Assembly (NCBI RefSeq): GCF_030553305.1
Contig: NZ_JARRAH010000001.1
Span: 2,046,001 to 2,110,000, forward strand
Source: Halomarina ordinaria
Lineage (GTDB): Archaea; Halobacteriota; Halobacteria; Halobacteriales; Haloarculaceae
Length of the DNA: 64,000 nt
Reading direction: 5' to 3'
The notes beneath the pieces are model-generated. The model did no database searches and was not told the origin of the DNA. It was given only the letters and a program-made list of their open reading frames with translations. The position numbers were made by a program, and so were the translations under genes. Of the stretch, positions 11,680 through 20,415 are shown piece by piece; the stretch's first letter is position 1, and the number at the start of each line of letters is the position of its first letter.

Positions 11680-12363
11680 TCAGTAGATGAGTTCGTCGCT
11701 GTTCGTCGTCATGTAGAGGGTGCGGGCGGCGATGTTGACGGCGTGGTCGCCGACGCGTTCGAGGTCCCGCACGGTGAGCAACAGGACCGAGACGTCGTGC
11801 ATGAGCGCCTCGGCCTCGTCGCGGCCTCCCCCGTCGGTCGCCTCGTGGTCGATGAGTGCGCGGACGACGACGGTGCTCGCGTGCGAGCAGAGCGCGTCGA
11901 GTTCGTTGTCGCGGTCGGCCACCTCGTGACAGAGCCAGCCGTCGTCGCGGCGGGCGTAGGCGGCGACGGCGTCCTCGACCATGCTGACCGCGAGGTCGCC
12001 GATGTCCGCAAGGTTCACCTCTGGGAGGAGTTCGCGGTCGGCGTCCAGCGCGTAGCCGGCGAGGTTGGTGGCGAGGTCGCCGATGCGCTCGAGGTCGGTG
12101 ATGATCTTGAACGAGGCGGCGACGAAGCGCAGGTCGCCCGCGACGGGTTGCTGGAGGGCGACGAGGTCGATACACTGGCGTTCGAGGTCGAGGTACCGCT
12201 CGTTGACCACGCCGTCGCCGTCGATGACCGCCCGCGCGCCTGCGGGGTCGTCCTCGACGAGGGCGTCGAGCGCGAGTCGGAGGCGGTCGCAGACCAGGTC
12301 GGCCATCTCGGCCACCTCGTCGTCGAGGGCGTCGAGGCGGCGCTGCAGGTCTTCGCGTGCCAT
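11680..12363 (-). CDS. phoU: Phosphate signalling/transport regulator PhoU
   Basis: 227 residues, two tandem three-helix PhoU bundles. The metal-binding motifs are recognisable as DLRFVAASFKIITDLERIGDLATN in the first repeat and LLLTVRDLERVGDHAVNIAART in the second, each giving the conserved E-R-x-G-D-x-x-x-N. PhoU damps Pst transport and Pho signalling in bacteria. Here it is the last gene of pstS-pstC-pstA-pstB-phoU, 13 bases after pstB, so coexpression is very likely. No PhoR/PhoB pair is present, as is usual in haloarchaea. Confidence 0.92.
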   Translation of the reverse strand: MAREDLQRRLDALDDEVAEMADLVCDRLRLALDALVEDDPAGARAVIDGDGVVNERYLDLERQCIDLVALQQPVAGDLRFVAASFKIITDLERIGDLATNLAGYALDADRELLPEVNLADIGDLAVSMVEDAVAAYARRDDGWLCHEVADRDNELDALCSHASTVVVRALIDHEATDGGGRDEAEALMHDVSVLLLTVRDLERVGDHAVNIAARTLYMTTNSDELIY

Positions 12364-12376
12364 CGCGGCCGTCGAG

Positions 12377-13261
12377 TCACCCGAACTTGCCGGTGATGTA
12401 GTCCTCGACCCGGTCGCTCTCGGGGTTCTCGAATATCTTCTGGGTGTCGTCGAACTCGACGAGTTCGCCGCCGGTGAGGAAGACGGCCGTCTTGTCGGAG
12501 ATGCGTGCGGCCTGCTGCATGTTGTGCGTGACGATGACGACGGTGTAGTCCTCGGCGAGTTCCTCGATGAGGTCCTCTATCTGGGAGGTGGCGACGGGGT
12601 CGAGCGCGCTCGCCGGTTCGTCCATCAGGATGACCTCCGGGTCGACGGCGATGGCGCGCGCGATACAGAGGCGCTGCTGCTGGCCGCCCGAGAGGTCGAG
12701 TCCGGACTTGTCGAGCTGGTCCTTCACCTCGTCCCACAGCGCGGCGTCGCGAAGCGCCTGCTCGACGCGTTCGTCCATGTCGTCGGTCTTCCCCTGGACG
12801 CGCAGTCCGTAGGCGACGTTGTCGTAGATGCTCTTGGGGAAGGGGTTGGGCGACTGGAACACCATGCCGATGCGCCGTCGGAGCGCGACGGGGTCGACGG
12901 TCTCGTCGTAGACGTTCTGTCCGTCGAACAGGAGTTCACCCTCCACGCGGGCGGTGTCGACGAGGTCGTTCATCCGGTTGATACACCGGAGGAACGTCGA
13001 CTTCCCACACCCCGAAGGCCCGATCATCGCGGTGACGCGATTGGTCGGGATGGACATCGAGACGCCCCGGAGCGCCTGCAGGTCGCCGTAGTACGCGTCG
13101 ATGTCGCGGGCCTCGATGATCTCCTCCTCGACCGTCCCGGTGGTCGTCGTCTCGCCGGTCGAAATCGACGTCTCGATGAGCTTCTCCTCGTCGCTCGACT
13201 CGGCGGTCTCGATTCGGTCGTCCAGTGCGGTCCGTTCTTCCTCTGACATGTTCTCTGACAT
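12377..13261 (-). CDS. pstB: Phosphate ABC transporter ATP-binding protein PstB
   Basis: 294 residues. Walker A GPSGCGKS (81-88), Q-loop [22 protein letters not shown], signature LSGGQQQR, Walker B VILMDEP and switch histidine in VTHNMQQA. The [18 protein letters not shown] and PNPFP patterns are diagnostic of PstB. A haloarchaeal-type acidic, Ser/Thr-rich N-terminal extension of about 45 residues precedes the ATPase. Four bases separate it from pstA upstream. Energises phosphate import at the inner face of the membrane. Confidence 0.96.
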
Positions 13262-13265
13262 TGTG

Positions 13266-14981
13266 TTAGCTCCCTCGCTGGTACTTGTTCCGAATCACGA
13301 TCGCCGTCCCGTTCATCAGCAGTAACACGACCAGCAACGTAACCACTCCGGCGGCGAGGACGCCGTATCGGAACTCGGGCTGCAGTTCGGAGGACCACGA
13401 GAAGATCTGACGAGGCATCGCGCTGAACCGGGAGAAGAACCCGTTGGGGGTCGTCCGGACGCTCGCCGCCGCACCGATCATCAGGAGCGGTGCGGTCTCG
13501 CCGATGGCCCGCCCGAGCGCCAGGATAGTCCCGGTGAGGACCCCCGGGAGCGCCTCGGGGAGGACCACGTTCCGGGTCGTCTGCCATCGCGTCGCGCCCA
13601 TCCCGTAGGACGCCTGCCGCATCGAGTCGGGGACCGCCCGAATCGACTCCTGGGCGGAGATGATGACGATGGGGAGGATGAGCAGCCCGACGGTGAACCC
13701 GCCGACGATGACCGTCCCGGACCCGAGACTCATCGCCCGGACGAATATCGCGAGGCCGAGGAGACCGTACACGACCGACGGGACGCCGGCGAGGTTGCCG
13801 ATGTTTATCTCGATGAGCGTCACCAGTTTCCCGACGAGGCCGGTGTCGGGGGCGTACTCCTCGAGGTAGATAGCCGCGCCGACGCCGACCGGGAACGCGG
13901 AGGCGATGATGACGACGAGCATCAGCACCGACCCGACGAGCGCCGGGTAGATGCCGGCGTCCTCCGGGGTCGTCGACGTCGCGCTCGTGAGGAAGCCCCA
14001 GTCTATCCACGGGTCCGGGCCGGCGAAGCCGAACGTCTCGGCGAGGACGGCGCCCAGCAGCGCCCCTCCAACGACCACGACGGGGAACAGCAGTCCGCTC
14101 AGTCCCTCGCGCCGTCGGACGACGCCCTCGAGGTAGAACCCGAGCGGGAGCAGGACGACGGTGGCGAGCAGGACCCAGTGTTCCGAACTCAGGCCGACCA
14201 GCGGGGTGACGTACGCGCCCGCGGAGACGACGACGAGCGTCGCCACGACCGTCTCGACGAGGCCGCGTTCGTCGTTGCGGCGGGCGGCGATGGCTCGACC
14301 GGCCACGAGCGCGGCCGGGAGCGTCACCGAGACGAGGAGCATCATCCAGTCGAGCGGGAGGACCGGGAGCGCGAGGAACAGGTCCGGCACCCCCGGCAGG
14401 AGTTGCGGCGTCGAGAAGGCGATGCCGAACAGTTCGGTCCGGGTCACCGGCGTCACGAAGGTGAAGTCGACCGACAGTGCCGGGATACCGACCACCGCCA
14501 GCAGCGGCGCGGCCAGCAGGACGAACAGTCGTTCGAGGGCCGCTTCGGGCCTGAAGCGCCGGTGAGCGTAGACGAGCGTGGCACCGACGAGCAGACCGAG
14601 CGCCAGCCCCAACCACTCCGCTGCCGATATTATCTCGATGAACAGGACGACGAGTCCGCCGCCGACGAGCAGTCCGACGACGGGGATGCCCAGGCTGGCG
14701 TAGGCGACGTCGACGGCCTTGCCGTCACGCGTGTAGAAGTACGTGACGAGCGCGAGCGACGGCACGACGAGCGTGAGGAAGAACACGAGGTGCCAGCCGG
14801 GGTCGGCGCTCAGCGGCCGAATCGCGTCGTTCGCGACGTACAGTAGCAACCCGGCGACGGTGAGGATGCCGAACATCGTCGCGCCGAGGGTCACTCCCTC
14901 GAAGAGGGTTCCCCGGAGCCGGCTTATCTGCTCGGTGCCGGCGTCACTGGTGGTCGTCTCGGAGACGGTTTCGCTCGCCAT
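13266..14981 (-). CDS. pstA: Phosphate ABC transporter permease PstA with long N-terminal membrane extension
   Basis: 571 residues, about twice the bacterial length. The C-terminal 290 residues form the typical binding-protein-dependent permease, with the EAA-like loop [32 protein letters not shown] and [15 protein letters not shown] helix ([16 protein letters not shown]). The N-terminal half adds about six to seven extra hydrophobic segments ([11 protein letters not shown] through [14 protein letters not shown]) of unknown role. Such extended PstA proteins appear to be a haloarchaeal habit. Overlaps nothing; 19 bases follow pstC. Confidence 0.93.
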
Positions 14982-15000
14982 CAGTCTCCCCCCCCGGTAC

Positions 15001-15948
15001 TCATTGGTACTCCTCCCGATACCGTGCGGCGATTCGGTTGCTGATGAGGTTCATGGCGAAGGTGATAGCGAACAGCGTCAGACCGAGCGCGAACATGCTC
15101 TTGTACGTCGGCGACGCGGCACCGACGTCGCTCGTGACCGCCTGTACCATCGCGGAGGTCATCGTCTGACCGGACTGCGAGAGGCTCCCGATGGGGTCGG
15201 TGAAGTCGAACAGGCGTGGCCGGAGCCCCATCGCCATCGCGACGATCATCGTCTCGCCGATAGCGCGCGAGAGCGCGAGGATGAACGACGAGAAGATGCC
15301 GGAGAGTGCTGCGGGAACGACGATACCGGTCGAGACCTCGTACTTCGTCGCACCGAGGCCGTAGCCGGCCTGCCGGAGCGAGTCCGGCACCGCGCTCATG
15401 GCGTCCTCGCTGAGGCTCGACACCATCGGTATTATCATGATGCCGACCAGAATCGACGCGCTCAGGACGTTGAACGTCCCGAGGTCGAACCCGACGGCGC
15501 GCAACAGGTCGGTCATGTACACGAGCGCCAGGTAGCCGTAGACCACCGTCGGGATGCCGGCGAGGATCTCCAGGCCGGGTTTCAGAACCGAGCGCGCGCG
15601 CGGACTCGCGTACTCGCTGAGGTAGATCGCGGACGCCACCCCGATGGGGATGGCGACGAGCGCCGACACGGCGGTCACGAGGAGCGTCCCCGAGACGAGC
15701 GGCAGGACGCCGTACTGCTCTCTGGCGGTTATCCACTCCGTCCCGGTGAAGAACTCGACCGGACTCACCATCCGGAAGAACGAGACGGCGTCGACGGCGA
15801 GCGATACGATGATGGTCCCCGTCACCACGACGGAGAGCGCGGCGCAGAGGAACAGCACCAGTCGGTAGACGCGCTCGCGAGCGACGCGACTCCGTTCGCC
15901 GCCGGTCAACTGCAGGCGCGTCGATTCGTTACTCATCTGGTCGTCCAT
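15001..15948 (-). CDS. pstC: Phosphate ABC transporter permease PstC
   Basis: 315 residues, six membrane segments. YGVLPLVSGTLLVTAVSALVAIPIG, the EAA-type loop PDSLRQAGYGLGATKYEVSTGIVVPAALSGI, and SRAIGETMIVAMAMG are diagnostic of PstC. Start MDDQMSNEST was taken (MSNEST, four codons later, is also possible); the open frame continues upstream but would overlap pstS. The gene lies 53 bases after pstS. Confidence 0.94.
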   Translation of the reverse strand: MDDQMSNESTRLQLTGGERSRVARERVYRLVLFLCAALSVVVTGTIIVSLAVDAVSFFRMVSPVEFFTGTEWITAREQYGVLPLVSGTLLVTAVSALVAIPIGVASAIYLSEYASPRARSVLKPGLEILAGIPTVVYGYLALVYMTDLLRAVGFDLGTFNVLSASILVGIMIIPMVSSLSEDAMSAVPDSLRQAGYGLGATKYEVSTGIVVPAALSGIFSSFILALSRAIGETMIVAMAMGLRPRLFDFTDPIGSLSQSGQTMTSAMVQAVTSDVGAASPTYKSMFALGLTLFAITFAMNLISNRIAARYREEYQ

Positions 15949-16001
15949 GACGTAGGGAAATATGTAATTGGCTCGATTCTGACCGCCGAGACGGTCGTAG
16001 G

Positions 16002-17009
16002 CTATCCGGAGATCTCCTCGAGCGTCTCCATGTTCTCCTCGATGACGTCGTCGCCGGCCGGGACGTACCCGATCTCGGCGACGGTGTCGTTCCCGGAGTT
16101 CTCGATGTAGAACTCGAGGAACGCGGCGACCTCCTCGCGCTCCGCCGCCGCCTCGCTCGCGTAGATGAACAGCGGGCGGGCCAGCGGGTAGGTCCCCTCG
16201 CTGGCGGCGTCGAGGCTCGGCGCGACGGGGTCGTCGCCCTCCTCCTCGCGGATCTCGACGGCCTTCACCGAGTCTTCGTTCTCGCTGTAGTAGGCGTAGC
16301 CGAAGTAGCCCATCGCGTACTGGGAGTCCTGGATACCCTGGACGATGAGGTTGTCCTCCTCGGTCGGTTCGTGCTCGGCGGTGTGTTGGTAGTCCTCGCC
16401 GATGACGTTCTCGTTGAACCAGTCGTAGGTCCCGGAGGTGGACGCCGGTCCGAACAGTTCGAGTTCCTCGTCGGGCCAGTCGTCGCGGACGTCCGACCAC
16501 ATCTGGGCGCCGTCGTCGCGCCAGATCTGGGAGAGTTCGTCGAAGGTCATGCTGTCGACCCAGTCGGCCTCGTTGTTGACCGCGACCGTCAGCGCGTCGC
16601 TGGCCACCTGGAACTCGACGGGGGTGACGTCGTTCGACTCACAGTTCTCGACCTCCTCGTCCGTGATGGGACGCGACGCCCCGTTGATGTCCGAGTCGCC
16701 GGGACAGAAGTTGTTCTCGAAGCCGCCACCGCTCCCCGTCGAGTCGACGGTCACGTTCACGTCGGGGTGCTCGTCCATGAACAGTTCCGCGAACTCGTTG
16801 GACACCGGGAAGACCGTCGAACTCCCCGTGATGATGACCTCGCCCGACAGCGACCCGCCGCCACTGCCGTTACCGCTACCGTTGTCATCCCCACCGCCGC
16901 CACCACCGGTGTTCTGCTGGGTACAGCCGGCGAGTGCCAGTGCGCCTGCGGTGCCCGACGCCGCGATGAACTTCCGCCGTGAGATGCCGCGAATGGAGTC
17001 GTCTGCCAT
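16002..17009 (-). CDS. pstS: Phosphate-binding lipoprotein PstS
   Basis: 335 residues. A twin-arginine signal (SRRKFIAASG) leads to the lipobox ALAGC, so the protein is exported folded and lipid-anchored outside. A glycine/asparagine linker (residues about 35-55) follows. Phosphate-site motifs: ITGSSTVFPVSNEFAELF, the DSTGSGGGFENNFCPGDSDINGASRPI loop and ASTSGTYDWFNENV. ATG at 17009 was chosen; a GTG directly before it (17012) is in frame. First gene of the pst operon, with an AT-rich promoter upstream. Confidence 0.95.
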   Translation of the reverse strand: MADDSIRGISRRKFIAASGTAGALALAGCTQQNTGGGGGGDDNGSGNGSGGGSLSGEVIITGSSTVFPVSNEFAELFMDEHPDVNVTVDSTGSGGGFENNFCPGDSDINGASRPITDEEVENCESNDVTPVEFQVASDALTVAVNNEADWVDSMTFDELSQIWRDDGAQMWSDVRDDWPDEELELFGPASTSGTYDWFNENVIGEDYQHTAEHEPTEEDNLIVQGIQDSQYAMGYFGYAYYSENEDSVKAVEIREEEGDDPVAPSLDAASEGTYPLARPLFIYASEAAAEREEVAAFLEFYIENSGNDTVAEIGYVPAGDDVIEENMETLEEISG

Positions 17010-17052
17010 CACGTGGGTATCCCACCGTTCACGATATGAAGCTTCCGAATTC

Positions 17053-17268: not shown

Positions 17269-17694
17269 TCACTCCATGCCGCGGTCCCTCGCGCCCGCTC
17301 GAATCTTCCTCGCGCGCTTGCGGACGCGCGAGACGTACCGTTCTATCTTCTCGGGTTTCTCGCCGTAGAACGAGGCGATCCAGTAGACGTCCGTGTTCGG
17401 CTGGGTGAGGAAGTACGCGACCAGCGTGTCCCGTCCGGCCTGGATGACGGTCGGGGGGACGCCCCGGTCGCCCGTACCGGCCTCCTCGAAGCCGTTGACG
17501 TCGAAGTAGACGTCGGCGTACAGCTCCGCGAGGTCGGAGCTCTCGAAGGTGCGTCCCTCGTGGTGCGGCGCCTCGAACCGGTAGGTGGTCTCGCCGGCGG
17601 GGGACGCCGTCTCGACGATGCGCACGCCGAGGATGTACTCGCGGTGGGTCGACTCGTCTCGCCCGTCGGCGCTCGGGTTCTCTGACTGTGACAT
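17269..17694 (-). CDS. Conserved-looking haloarchaeal protein, function unknown
   Basis: 141 residues, soluble, with an acidic disordered N-terminus (first 17 residues), a beta-rich middle (REYILGVRIVETASPAGETTYRFEAP, then DTLVAYFLTQPNTDVYWIASFYG) and a very basic C-terminal helix (YVSRVRKRARKIRAGARDRG). No motif recognised. It follows phoX by 30 bases on the same strand, so it may be co-transcribed with it and be phosphate-regulated; the basic tail suggests nucleic-acid or phosphate-polymer contact, which is speculation. Confidence 0.6.
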   Translation of the reverse strand: MSQSENPSADGRDESTHREYILGVRIVETASPAGETTYRFEAPHHEGRTFESSDLAELYADVYFDVNGFEEAGTGDRGVPPTVIQAGRDTLVAYFLTQPNTDVYWIASFYGEKPEKIERYVSRVRKRARKIRAGARDRGME

Positions 17695-17724
17695 GTGGGT
17701 GGTGTGGTGGGGTCGTGGTCGACC

Positions 17725-20415
17725 TCAGTCGCTCTCCTCCGCGAGGCTGACGACGTCGTCGTAGTCGACGTCGCCGTTCTCGTTGAAGTCGAACGCGTCG
17801 TCGCTCTCGGTGACGCCCTCCGCGTCGACGTTCTCGAACAGCGCCTGCACGTCGTCGTCGTCGACGTCACCGTCGCCGTCGACGTCCTCGTAGTGGCCGT
17901 CGCCGTCGGGGTCGGTCGGCGCGTGGTCGCCGACGACCGCGGGCGGGCCGGTGGCGACGACGCCCGTCCGCGCCTCGGCGTCGATGGCGTCGCCGTCCTC
18001 GTCGTCCATCGCGTGTATCTCGACCTCGAGTTCGGTCGTCCCGGCGCCCCGGGCGTGCACGTCGAGCGACGCGAGCGTGACCCGGCGGCCGCCCGGCTGG
18101 ACGTGCTCGCCGACGTCGGCGACGCGGAACGTCGCCGAGGAACCGCTCTTCGCCACCTCGGCCTCCGCGAGACCGAGTTCCTCGGGGAAGGAGACGTCGC
18201 CGATGGCCGCCACGTTGGGGTCGGCGACGCTGACGGTGAGGCGCGCGCCGGAGAACCCGGCCGGCAGCGACGACGCCCGCACGTCGGCGGTGGCGGACCC
18301 GCCGCGCGCGACGGTCACCGACTCGACGTCGACCAGCACGTTCGGCTGGTAGACGTACAGCCCGTCGTTGGGGTACGAGCGGGCGGGACCGCCGAAGCCG
18401 TCCTCGCAGCAGAGGACGCGGCCGTCGTCCATCACGTAGACGTTGTCGATGTTCCGGAGCGCGTCGTCGGCGTCCTCGGGCGGGTCGGTGAAGTCGGGGC
18501 CGACGATGACCGGTTCGAGCGTCGAGACGTTGTAGTCGGCTTCCAGTTCGCCCCGGTAGACGACGCCGCCGTCGACGCGGTCCATCTGGATGTCGCCCGT
18601 GTCGTCGGCCAGGTCGTCGTTGAACTCGGAGATACCGAAGTAGACGAAGTCGCCGGGCTGGGCCCCGTCGACGCTGTCGACGCCCTCGGCCTTGTTGAAC
18701 TCGATGGAGGCACCCATCTCCTTGGCGGCCGCGCGGGTCTCGAGGAACGGCACCTTCCGGAGGTCCTCGTCGACGCCGCGTGGACCGTGCTCCTCGACCT
18801 GTGCGGCCCACTCGACGATTTCGTCGTTCGAGATGTAGCTCCGGTTGCCACCCTCGACGACCGCCCGGTCGGCCTCCTCCAGGGCGGTTTCGAGGTCCTC
18901 GCGCCAGTCGGTCTCGGCGTGCGCTTCGAGGTAGTGGACCTGGGTGACGTCGTCGTAGGTCGAAATCCACTGCTCTATCTCGGCGTTGCTCGCGTGGCCC
19001 ATCTCGAGCCACTCGACTTCGAGGTTCACGTCGGCCGGGGAGTGCCGCTCCCCGGAGTCGGCCACCGAGGCCGCGTCGTTGGTTATCTTCGGCGCGTAGA
19101 GGGACCCCTCGACGTCCATCGGGTCGTCGTAGCTCGGAATCGGCTCGTCGGCGATGAACTTGTAGATGCCCTTGCTGTCGCCGTCCGAGCAGCCGTAGGC
19201 GGTCCGCTCGTCGGTCAGGATGTCCGGCGACTCCCAGGAGGCGCGGCCCATCACGTAGTACTTGACGGGCTGCGGTTCGTCGGCAGCCGGGTCGCGGAAG
19301 TCGACGTGGTAGCCGTAGCGATACGGGTTCGGGTAGACGTCGCCGATGGGCGTCTGGGTGTTCTCGTCGTCCTCGCCCTGGTCGACGGGTTCGGCACCGA
19401 GGTAGTACGCGAGGAACTCGACGCCCGTCAGCGCCCAGTAGCCCTGGACGGACCAGGCGTCGTCGCCGTAGTACCCGTCGACGGCCTCCTGAATCTCCGA
19501 GGGGTTCGGGCGGTTCCAGAACTGACTGGCGGCGACGAGGCCCTCGCCGCTCCCGGCCTCCACGATGTCGCCGACCGTGTGGGTGAGCGAGACGCGCGGG
19601 TGGGCGTAGTTCTCCTCGGAGGAGATCATCGTCCCCCACGGCGAGAGGTCGCCGTAGCAGTTGATTCGCGTGCCGCCGAGGGCGCGGAACGCGTCGGTGT
19701 TCGCGAGGTTGATCGCGTCGTCGAGGTCGGCCTCCCACTCGCCGTCGTCGTCCTGGCTGAGCGGGATTCGGGAGACGTTCCCGGGGCTGTTCTCCCAGTT
19801 CGTGAAGAGGTAGCCCTCGGTGCCCTCGTCGTTCGTCGCGACGAACTGGTTGCAGTCGGGGTTGCTCGCGGCCAGCCCGTACTGCGTGCCCCGGAAGAAC
19901 GGCTGTTCGTCCCGCTGGGGGTCGAGGGCGTCCTCCCGGATGATGTCGGTGCCGTCGGGCGTCTGGGTCACGCCGAGGCGCTCCTCGCCGCCGTTGATGG
20001 GCTCTCGGCCCTGCGCGAGCAGGACGTACTCGCCGTTGCCCGCCCGGACGACGCCCTGTTCGTCTCTCGTCTGCGGGGTCGAGAGTTCGGCGAAGTCGTC
20101 GTTGTCGCCGTCGAGTTCGAACTGGAAGCCGCTGAAGTAGCCGATGCCGGCCCGGTCGAACGGCTCCGGGTTCTCCTCGCTCGGGTGCTGCAGGCTGTAC
20201 AGCAGGCCGCCGTCCTCGAAGACGAACGGTCCCGTCACCTCGGCGCCGTACGCCGTCGTCGAGAACCGCTTGAGGTGTCCCTTCACGCTCGGCGCCCCCG
20301 GCGTGTCCGACTCCTCGACCTCCGTCGAGTGTTCACCGCTCGCAACGCCCACCACGCTGGCCCCGAGCGCGGCGGCTACCGAGGAAGCCATCAACTTCCG
20401 CCTGGTAAGTTCCAT
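17725..20415 (-). CDS. phoX: PhoX-type secreted phosphatase (DUF839) with cohesin-like and dockerin modules
   Basis: 896 residues. A twin-arginine signal (TRRKLMASS, residues 4-12) is followed by a PhoX/DUF839 catalytic region (about 45-690); NCYGDLSPWGTMISSEENY (252-270) matches the family's NC..G..PWGT...EE core that builds the Fe/Ca site. Residues about 693-820 form a beta-sandwich resembling a cohesin, and residues 835-896 contain two calcium-binding dockerin repeats (DVDGDGDVDDDDVQALF and DFNENGDVDYDDVVSLA). Role: hydrolysis of organic phosphate esters outside the cell, feeding the Pst system next door. The catalytic assignment is firm; the function of the modules is inferred. Confidence 0.88.
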   Translation of the reverse strand: MELTRRKLMASSVAAALGASVVGVASGEHSTEVEESDTPGAPSVKGHLKRFSTTAYGAEVTGPFVFEDGGLLYSLQHPSEENPEPFDRAGIGYFSGFQFELDGDNDDFAELSTPQTRDEQGVVRAGNGEYVLLAQGREPINGGEERLGVTQTPDGTDIIREDALDPQRDEQPFFRGTQYGLAASNPDCNQFVATNDEGTEGYLFTNWENSPGNVSRIPLSQDDDGEWEADLDDAINLANTDAFRALGGTRINCYGDLSPWGTMISSEENYAHPRVSLTHTVGDIVEAGSGEGLVAASQFWNRPNPSEIQEAVDGYYGDDAWSVQGYWALTGVEFLAYYLGAEPVDQGEDDENTQTPIGDVYPNPYRYGYHVDFRDPAADEPQPVKYYVMGRASWESPDILTDERTAYGCSDGDSKGIYKFIADEPIPSYDDPMDVEGSLYAPKITNDAASVADSGERHSPADVNLEVEWLEMGHASNAEIEQWISTYDDVTQVHYLEAHAETDWREDLETALEEADRAVVEGGNRSYISNDEIVEWAAQVEEHGPRGVDEDLRKVPFLETRAAAKEMGASIEFNKAEGVDSVDGAQPGDFVYFGISEFNDDLADDTGDIQMDRVDGGVVYRGELEADYNVSTLEPVIVGPDFTDPPEDADDALRNIDNVYVMDDGRVLCCEDGFGGPARSYPNDGLYVYQPNVLVDVESVTVARGGSATADVRASSLPAGFSGARLTVSVADPNVAAIGDVSFPEELGLAEAEVAKSGSSATFRVADVGEHVQPGGRRVTLASLDVHARGAGTTELEVEIHAMDDEDGDAIDAEARTGVVATGPPAVVGDHAPTDPDGDGHYEDVDGDGDVDDDDVQALFENVDAEGVTESDDAFDFNENGDVDYDDVVSLAEESD

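Follow-up and report, generated by a model that had tools for sequence, protein, structure and literature searches.

A tailed PhoX phosphatase of Halomarina ordinaria, probably one half of a two-gene cohesin-dockerin display

The phoX locus

The features of the phoX region are listed below by their positions in the window, the whole stretch of 64,000 nucleotides of the Halomarina ordinaria genome that was analysed.

17725..20415, minus strand: phoX-cohesin-dockerin gene, predicted secreted alkaline phosphatase, 896 aa, ATG start
20335..20415, minus strand: twin-arginine (Tat) signal peptide predicted from sequence, residues 1–27, without a lipobox cysteine
18346..20298, minus strand: PhoX catalytic region, residues 40–690, by Pfam and fold match
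17947..18342, minus strand: predicted cohesin module, residues 692–823, by fold match to solved cohesins
17728..17919, minus strand: dockerin module, residues 833–896, by profile matches to solved dockerins and conserved in homologues
17851..17886, minus strand: dockerin calcium loop 1, DVDGDGDVDDDD, residues 844–855, with D at recognition position 10
17755..17790, minus strand: dockerin calcium loop 2, DFNENGDVDYDD, residues 876–887
17695..17724, no strand: 30 bp separating phoX from the following gene, a site that holds the anchored-cohesin gene in relatives such as L047 and L049; empty here
17269..17694, minus strand: orf141, a conserved 141-aa gene and frequent phoX neighbour in haloarchaea, adjoining phoX in most loci
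11680..17012, minus strand: pstS-pstC-pstA-pstB-phoU, phosphate uptake genes by NCBIfam, downstream on the phoX strand

The phoX ORF is, by Pfam and fold, a predicted Tat-signalled PhoX phosphatase. Its twin-arginine signal reads TRRKLM, and the RR is invariant among the PhoX relatives in a 30-row alignment; bacterial PhoX is exported by Tat, as haloarchaeal PhoX is predicted to be. The catalytic region matches PF05787 (PhoX) at residues 233–676 (E 1.1e-19, 71.5 bits against a Pfam cut-off of 24), and in an AlphaFold2 model built with 30 homologues (pLDDT 80.7, pTM 0.81) it aligns with the PhoX structure of Pseudomonas fluorescens (3zwu) over 401 residues (Z 17.6, 3.2 Å). The bacterial enzyme thus shares the catalytic domain family and fold, but its structure has no cohesin-dockerin tail. 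PhoX itself carries no C-terminal hydrophobic helix of the anchor type described below. Downstream, orf141 (17269–17694) matches no Pfam or NCBIfam family, and the phosphate uptake genes match TIGR02136 (pstS), TIGR02138 (pstC), TIGR00974 (pstA), TIGR00972 (pstB) and TIGR02135 (phoU); with phoX, they form a phosphate-scavenging neighbourhood.

The cohesin and dockerin modules

The first-pass annotation of this DNA placed a cohesin-like sandwich at about residues 693–820 and a complete two-repeat dockerin at 835–896, and both calls hold, with their borders correctly drawn. Residues 691–825 of the AlphaFold2 model match solved cohesins at Z 15.5–16.7, the best being CaCohA2 (6kgc; Z 16.7 over 131 residues, 2.2 Å, covering the nine-strand cohesin sandwich). 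The Archaeoglobus fulgidus cohesin 2xdh follows at Z 15.9, the OlpA and OlpC cohesins also fit in fold, and the single-domain matches to this segment are cohesins without exception. At the sequence level the Pfam Cohesin model does not match the window protein; a relative encoded in the same genome reaches 20.2 bits against a cut-off of 24.1, and the anchor protein of a related genome E 0.09. Searches of PDB sequences with cohesin profiles gave no significant match (A4, E 0.013; A6, E 0.11), so the cohesin call for the window PhoX rests on the predicted structure.

The dockerin contains two calcium loops of the DxDxDGxxDxxD type (residues 844–855 and 876–887). Alone it is a weak match to Pfam Dockerin_1 (E 0.31, 11.7 bits against a cut-off of 22.9), although its homologue in L067 passes that cut-off at 24.7 bits, and the profile of the family matches the solved dockerin CelS (2mte, E 1.2e-4) among other EF-hand proteins. 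The calcium ligands (F-hand positions 1, 3, 5 and 12) of DVDGDGDVDDDD and DFNENGDVDYDD are kept in all seven rows of the no-anchor set defined below and in 78 anchored relatives. A frameshift or a chance acidic repeat was considered as an artefactual source of the tail and ruled out, because dozens of haloarchaeal genomes encode a PhoX with this tail and with the calcium-ligand positions conserved. Both modules of the window PhoX lie far below the Pfam cut-offs, and routine annotation therefore overlooks them; used by themselves, Pfam and NCBIfam lack the sensitivity to detect such modules.

Pairing of tailed PhoX with a downstream cohesin gene

Relatives of PhoX are present in 204 of the 392 genomes of the order and come in two architectures, one with the cohesin-dockerin tail (matching residues 2–894) and one without it (matching residues 2–692). 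Loci with organism names include those of Halegenticoccus, Halomarina, Halalkalicoccus, Halocatena and Halogranum, and further ones of Haloarcula, Halomicrobium, Halorientalis, Natribaculum and Halovivax. Profiles for cohesin and dockerin were built for a census, which revealed many genomes with exactly one dockerin, that of PhoX, and two cohesins; the short gene immediately downstream of phoX encodes the second. Among the loci fetched, such a gene, its cohesin beginning 107–478 bp past the phoX stop, follows 70 of the 80 tail-bearing phoX genes and none of the 32 tail-less ones (Fisher p 1.4e-19; 23 genera from 4 families). Corrected for relatedness, the pairing comprises 4–5 independent changes, all in one direction and none opposed (sign test p 0.06–0.13), the corrected p staying above 0.05 because the independent changes are few; the pairing could reflect co-inheritance. 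The ten exceptions are five first copies of tandem phoX pairs, the locus of genome G303, and four that represent the window and its near relatives.

In the tandem loci (L087, L088, L109, L112 and L115) the tail is present on both phoX copies and one anchor gene follows the second. The PhoX of L039 (1138–3984) has kept its cohesin and lost its dockerin, with no anchor gene downstream, and two close tail-less PhoX relatives (L037 and L041; 81–84% identical) carry at the C-terminus another extension, unrelated to the tail and about 110–130 aa long.

The downstream proteins have a common layout, in which a signal peptide is followed by a single cohesin, then by a flexible linker and finally by a membrane helix at the C-terminus, the end often being PGF-CTERM-like. 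In the structural model these appear as a signal helix (18–31), a cohesin (pLDDT 90–97 over the domain; Z 15.1–15.2 to solved cohesins, including those of anchoring proteins), a disordered linker, and, at 241–260, the C-terminal helix. The C-terminal hydrophobic helix is found in 75 of 77 downstream proteins, and 70 of the proteins end in basic residues. PGF-CTERM is a mark of archaeosortase-dependent lipid anchoring of surface proteins; the letters PGF occur within 33 of 71 distinct tails, one of which exceeds the cut-off of the PGF-CTERM model (TIGR04126, 40.8 bits), and apart from this sorting signal no Pfam or NCBIfam family scores above its cut-off in these proteins.

From sequence and models, PhoX and the anchored cohesin together look like a two-gene cohesin-dockerin surface display and not like a cellulosome; a multi-cohesin scaffoldin gathering dockerin enzymes is not found at phoX. 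The earlier proposal that the protein could join a surface scaffold is strongly supported for the family by the pairing of tail and downstream cohesin, but in its simple form it is not supported for the window genome, where the anchor gene is absent beside phoX. An archaeal enzyme assembly in the sense of many enzymes on one scaffoldin is not borne out for PhoX, there being a single-cohesin neighbour in the relatives and none beside the window phoX. Searches of the open-access literature, with subscription papers outside their scope, returned no description of the PhoX/anchored-cohesin pair.

The residues expected to govern recognition are strongly conserved where the anchor is present. Of the 78 dockerins outside the no-anchor set, 75 have Y at position 10 of the first loop, and every second loop has Y or F there; at position 17, all first repeats of these dockerins have F and 67 second repeats have Y. 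Clostridial type I dockerins have near-symmetric repeats and two binding modes, and the repeats of the anchored relatives resemble that near-symmetry; the titles of structures 2vn5 and 2vn6 refer to two dockerin binding modes. The anchored relatives have equivalent residues in the two repeats (Y10 and Y/F10), and the window PhoX does not (D10 and Y10). The cohesins of PhoX and of the anchor also differ systematically, for example at window column 764, which in anchored species is R in 86% of the former and E in 99% of the latter, and the PhoX dockerin of these species has R at loop position 7. A profile alignment with CipA, made to map column 764 on the cohesin interface, broke down over the latter half of the domain. 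Going by the order of strands (FRVAD against FLFAE), the column may match Leu83, which we offer as a lead only.

The window clade without the anchor gene

The eight-row clade that contains the window PhoX is supported (SH-aLRT 97), and none of its rows has the anchor gene. The gene order in L047 and L049 is phoX, anchor, orf141, whereas in the window phoX abuts orf141 across 30 bp; no anchored-cohesin gene is found downstream of the window phoX and no anchor-type protein elsewhere in its genome. Loss in the window lineage is the simplest reading, although the tree is unrooted and would allow gain elsewhere as well. Nine other anchorless genomes were searched, including the nearest relatives of the window and two from outside the clade (G303 and Halogranum); G057 and G396 gave identical matches and are probably one genome. 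In these nine, no cohesin or dockerin was found beyond those of PhoX itself, save a marginal cohesin-profile match (E 0.04). In the other clade genomes searched, where no protein but PhoX has a cohesin or a dockerin, any docking of PhoX would be to itself.

For the loop comparison the no-anchor set consisted of the clade plus Halogranum, seven rows in total. Six of the seven have D, G or R at position 10 of loop 1, and the calcium ligands are retained. Divergence relative to the catalytic part is 2.73 for the cohesin and 2.38 for the dockerin in the window clade, compared to 1.71 and 1.27 respectively in anchored relatives, the pairs not being independent. By sequence comparison, then, one putative recognition site of the dockerin is eroded in the window clade and the tail is diverging faster, with the calcium ligands persisting.

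We think it probable that the window PhoX belongs to a two-gene cohesin-dockerin phosphatase display and that this lineage has lost the other half. Architecture, folds, gene pairing, absence of the anchor and sequence relaxation are computed, and from them we infer binding, localisation and benefit to the cell. In the anchored species folded PhoX would be exported by Tat and the anchor by Sec, and the PhoX dockerin would plug, in a calcium-dependent manner, into the cohesin on the outer face of the membrane, such that the tethered enzyme and the phosphate it frees are held near the uptake system of the cell. The cohesin of PhoX itself could bind a second PhoX or fold back onto its own dockerin. 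In the window clade the tail most likely would dock to itself, within or between chains, or bind weakly, and the enzyme would otherwise be released.

Self-association, the other part of the earlier proposal, is possible for the window PhoX. That self-docking is the main job of the tail, with the PhoX cohesin and dockerin joining in a closed monomer, a dimer or chains whether or not an anchor is present, seems unlikely to us. It would account for the retention of both modules, with all calcium-ligand positions, in the nine other genomes without a further cohesin or dockerin, and it agrees with pairwise dN/dS values that in the clade are mostly below 1 (some pairs being saturated or noisy); however, outside the window clade the tail is almost never found without the anchor gene, and the recognition residues decay in the very clade in which self is the only partner. 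Further, R764 in the PhoX cohesin and R at dockerin loop position 7 may disfavour self-binding, if column 764 lies at the interface. We are equally doubtful that in this lineage the tail is a relic decaying after loss of the anchor and docking to nothing now. The loss of the aromatic residue at position 10 of loop 1 would be expected of a relic, as would the divergence of cohesin and dockerin, about 2.4–2.7 times that of the catalytic part here against 1.3–1.7 in anchored relatives, and the L039 PhoX has elsewhere kept a cohesin and lost its dockerin. Against this, Halegenticoccus, Halomarina, Halalkalicoccus and Halocatena have all kept the calcium ligands, the reading frame and both modules, and dockerin dN/dS is 0.06–0.3 in the better-resolved pairs.

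Relationship to known cohesin-dockerin systems

To our knowledge, almost all known cases of cohesin-dockerin docking come from complexes that degrade polysaccharides, and the archaeal examples are without a clear job. A close likeness to the two-gene display that we favour is the type I tethering by OlpA and OlpC of Clostridium thermocellum, where a secreted enzyme bearing a two-loop dockerin at its C-terminus is likewise combined with a separate surface-anchored single-cohesin protein, and both the PhoX cohesin and that of the downstream protein match the OlpA/OlpC cohesins in fold. There are also differences. First, the haloarchaeal enzyme is a phosphatase with a cohesin of its own. Secondly, the anchor is SLH in the clostridial proteins and a C-terminal helix or PGF-CTERM-like tail in haloarchaea. 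Thirdly, haloarchaea have one dedicated receptor gene adjoining the enzyme gene.

Among archaea, the non-cellulosomal proteins of A. fulgidus (Bayer 1999 and Haimovitz 2008, as cited in PMC9012536) are similar in having a cohesin and a dockerin with no link to cellulose, and in cohesin fold (2xdh, Z 15.9). An enzyme-receptor gene pair is not known to be described for them, whereas the haloarchaea show a catalytic partner, an anchor and a wide distribution. The same review of archaeal cohesins and dockerins (PMC9012536) covers scaffoldin-like proteins in ANME archaea, in which extracellular proteins including solute-binding proteins carry dockerins and are proposed to attach to the surface; those genomes encode multi-cohesin scaffoldin-like proteins and S-layer-dockerin proteins, in contrast to the single anchored cohesin per phosphatase in haloarchaea.

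We slightly favour a broader proposal: a dedicated haloarchaeal plug-and-socket for phosphate scavenging, with a membrane- or archaeosortase-anchored receptor that was lost in some lineages including that of the window, leaving self as the sole possible partner, and with the dockerins of haloarchaeal enzymes being docking parts in general, their cohesins missed by annotation. Haloarchaeal cohesins do fall under standard detection thresholds. Many haloarchaea encode an enzyme next to its likely receptor and natural losses provide controls, so the function of archaeal cohesins can be tested directly in species that grow in culture; a cohesin-dockerin pair that tolerates salt could also serve as a protein-engineering part.

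Other cohesin and dockerin genes

The first-pass annotation suggested looking through the genome for other cohesin or dockerin proteins, and three further cohesins and two further dockerins are indeed encoded, in a separate operon (L042 5674–14609, corresponding to C1 ~1,489.7–1,498.6 kb of the window's own genome). Of the proteins encoded by its three cohesin/dockerin genes, one of 1778 aa has malectin and PKD domains besides a dockerin, another of 733 aa has a dockerin alongside two cohesins, and the third combines a single cohesin with a stretch of repeats rich in Asp and Ser. These modules offer partners in trans, but that the window PhoX docks to them appears quite improbable: loop positions 10–11 are IV or LV in both repeats of the operon dockerins and DD and YD in PhoX, suggesting another specificity, the operon is missing from the neighbours of the window's clade, and the single-cohesin protein has no C-terminal membrane helix evident in its sequence. 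Still less probable is that the PhoX dockerin binds substrate or is a calcium-stabilising module and does no docking: dockerins on haloarchaeal polysaccharide enzymes are read as substrate-binding in PMC10963439 and PMC13260240, but cohesins are mentioned in neither and such a role leaves the cohesin gene next door and its strict pairing with the tail unexplained. The pairing offers an alternative reading of these dockerins.

We note that haloarchaea also encode scaffoldin-like proteins with 2–3 cohesins, some with a dockerin as well, adjoining large dockerin ORFs (L203, L204, L206 and L208), and that in L208 a neighbouring single-cohesin protein likewise has a PGF-type C-terminal tail.
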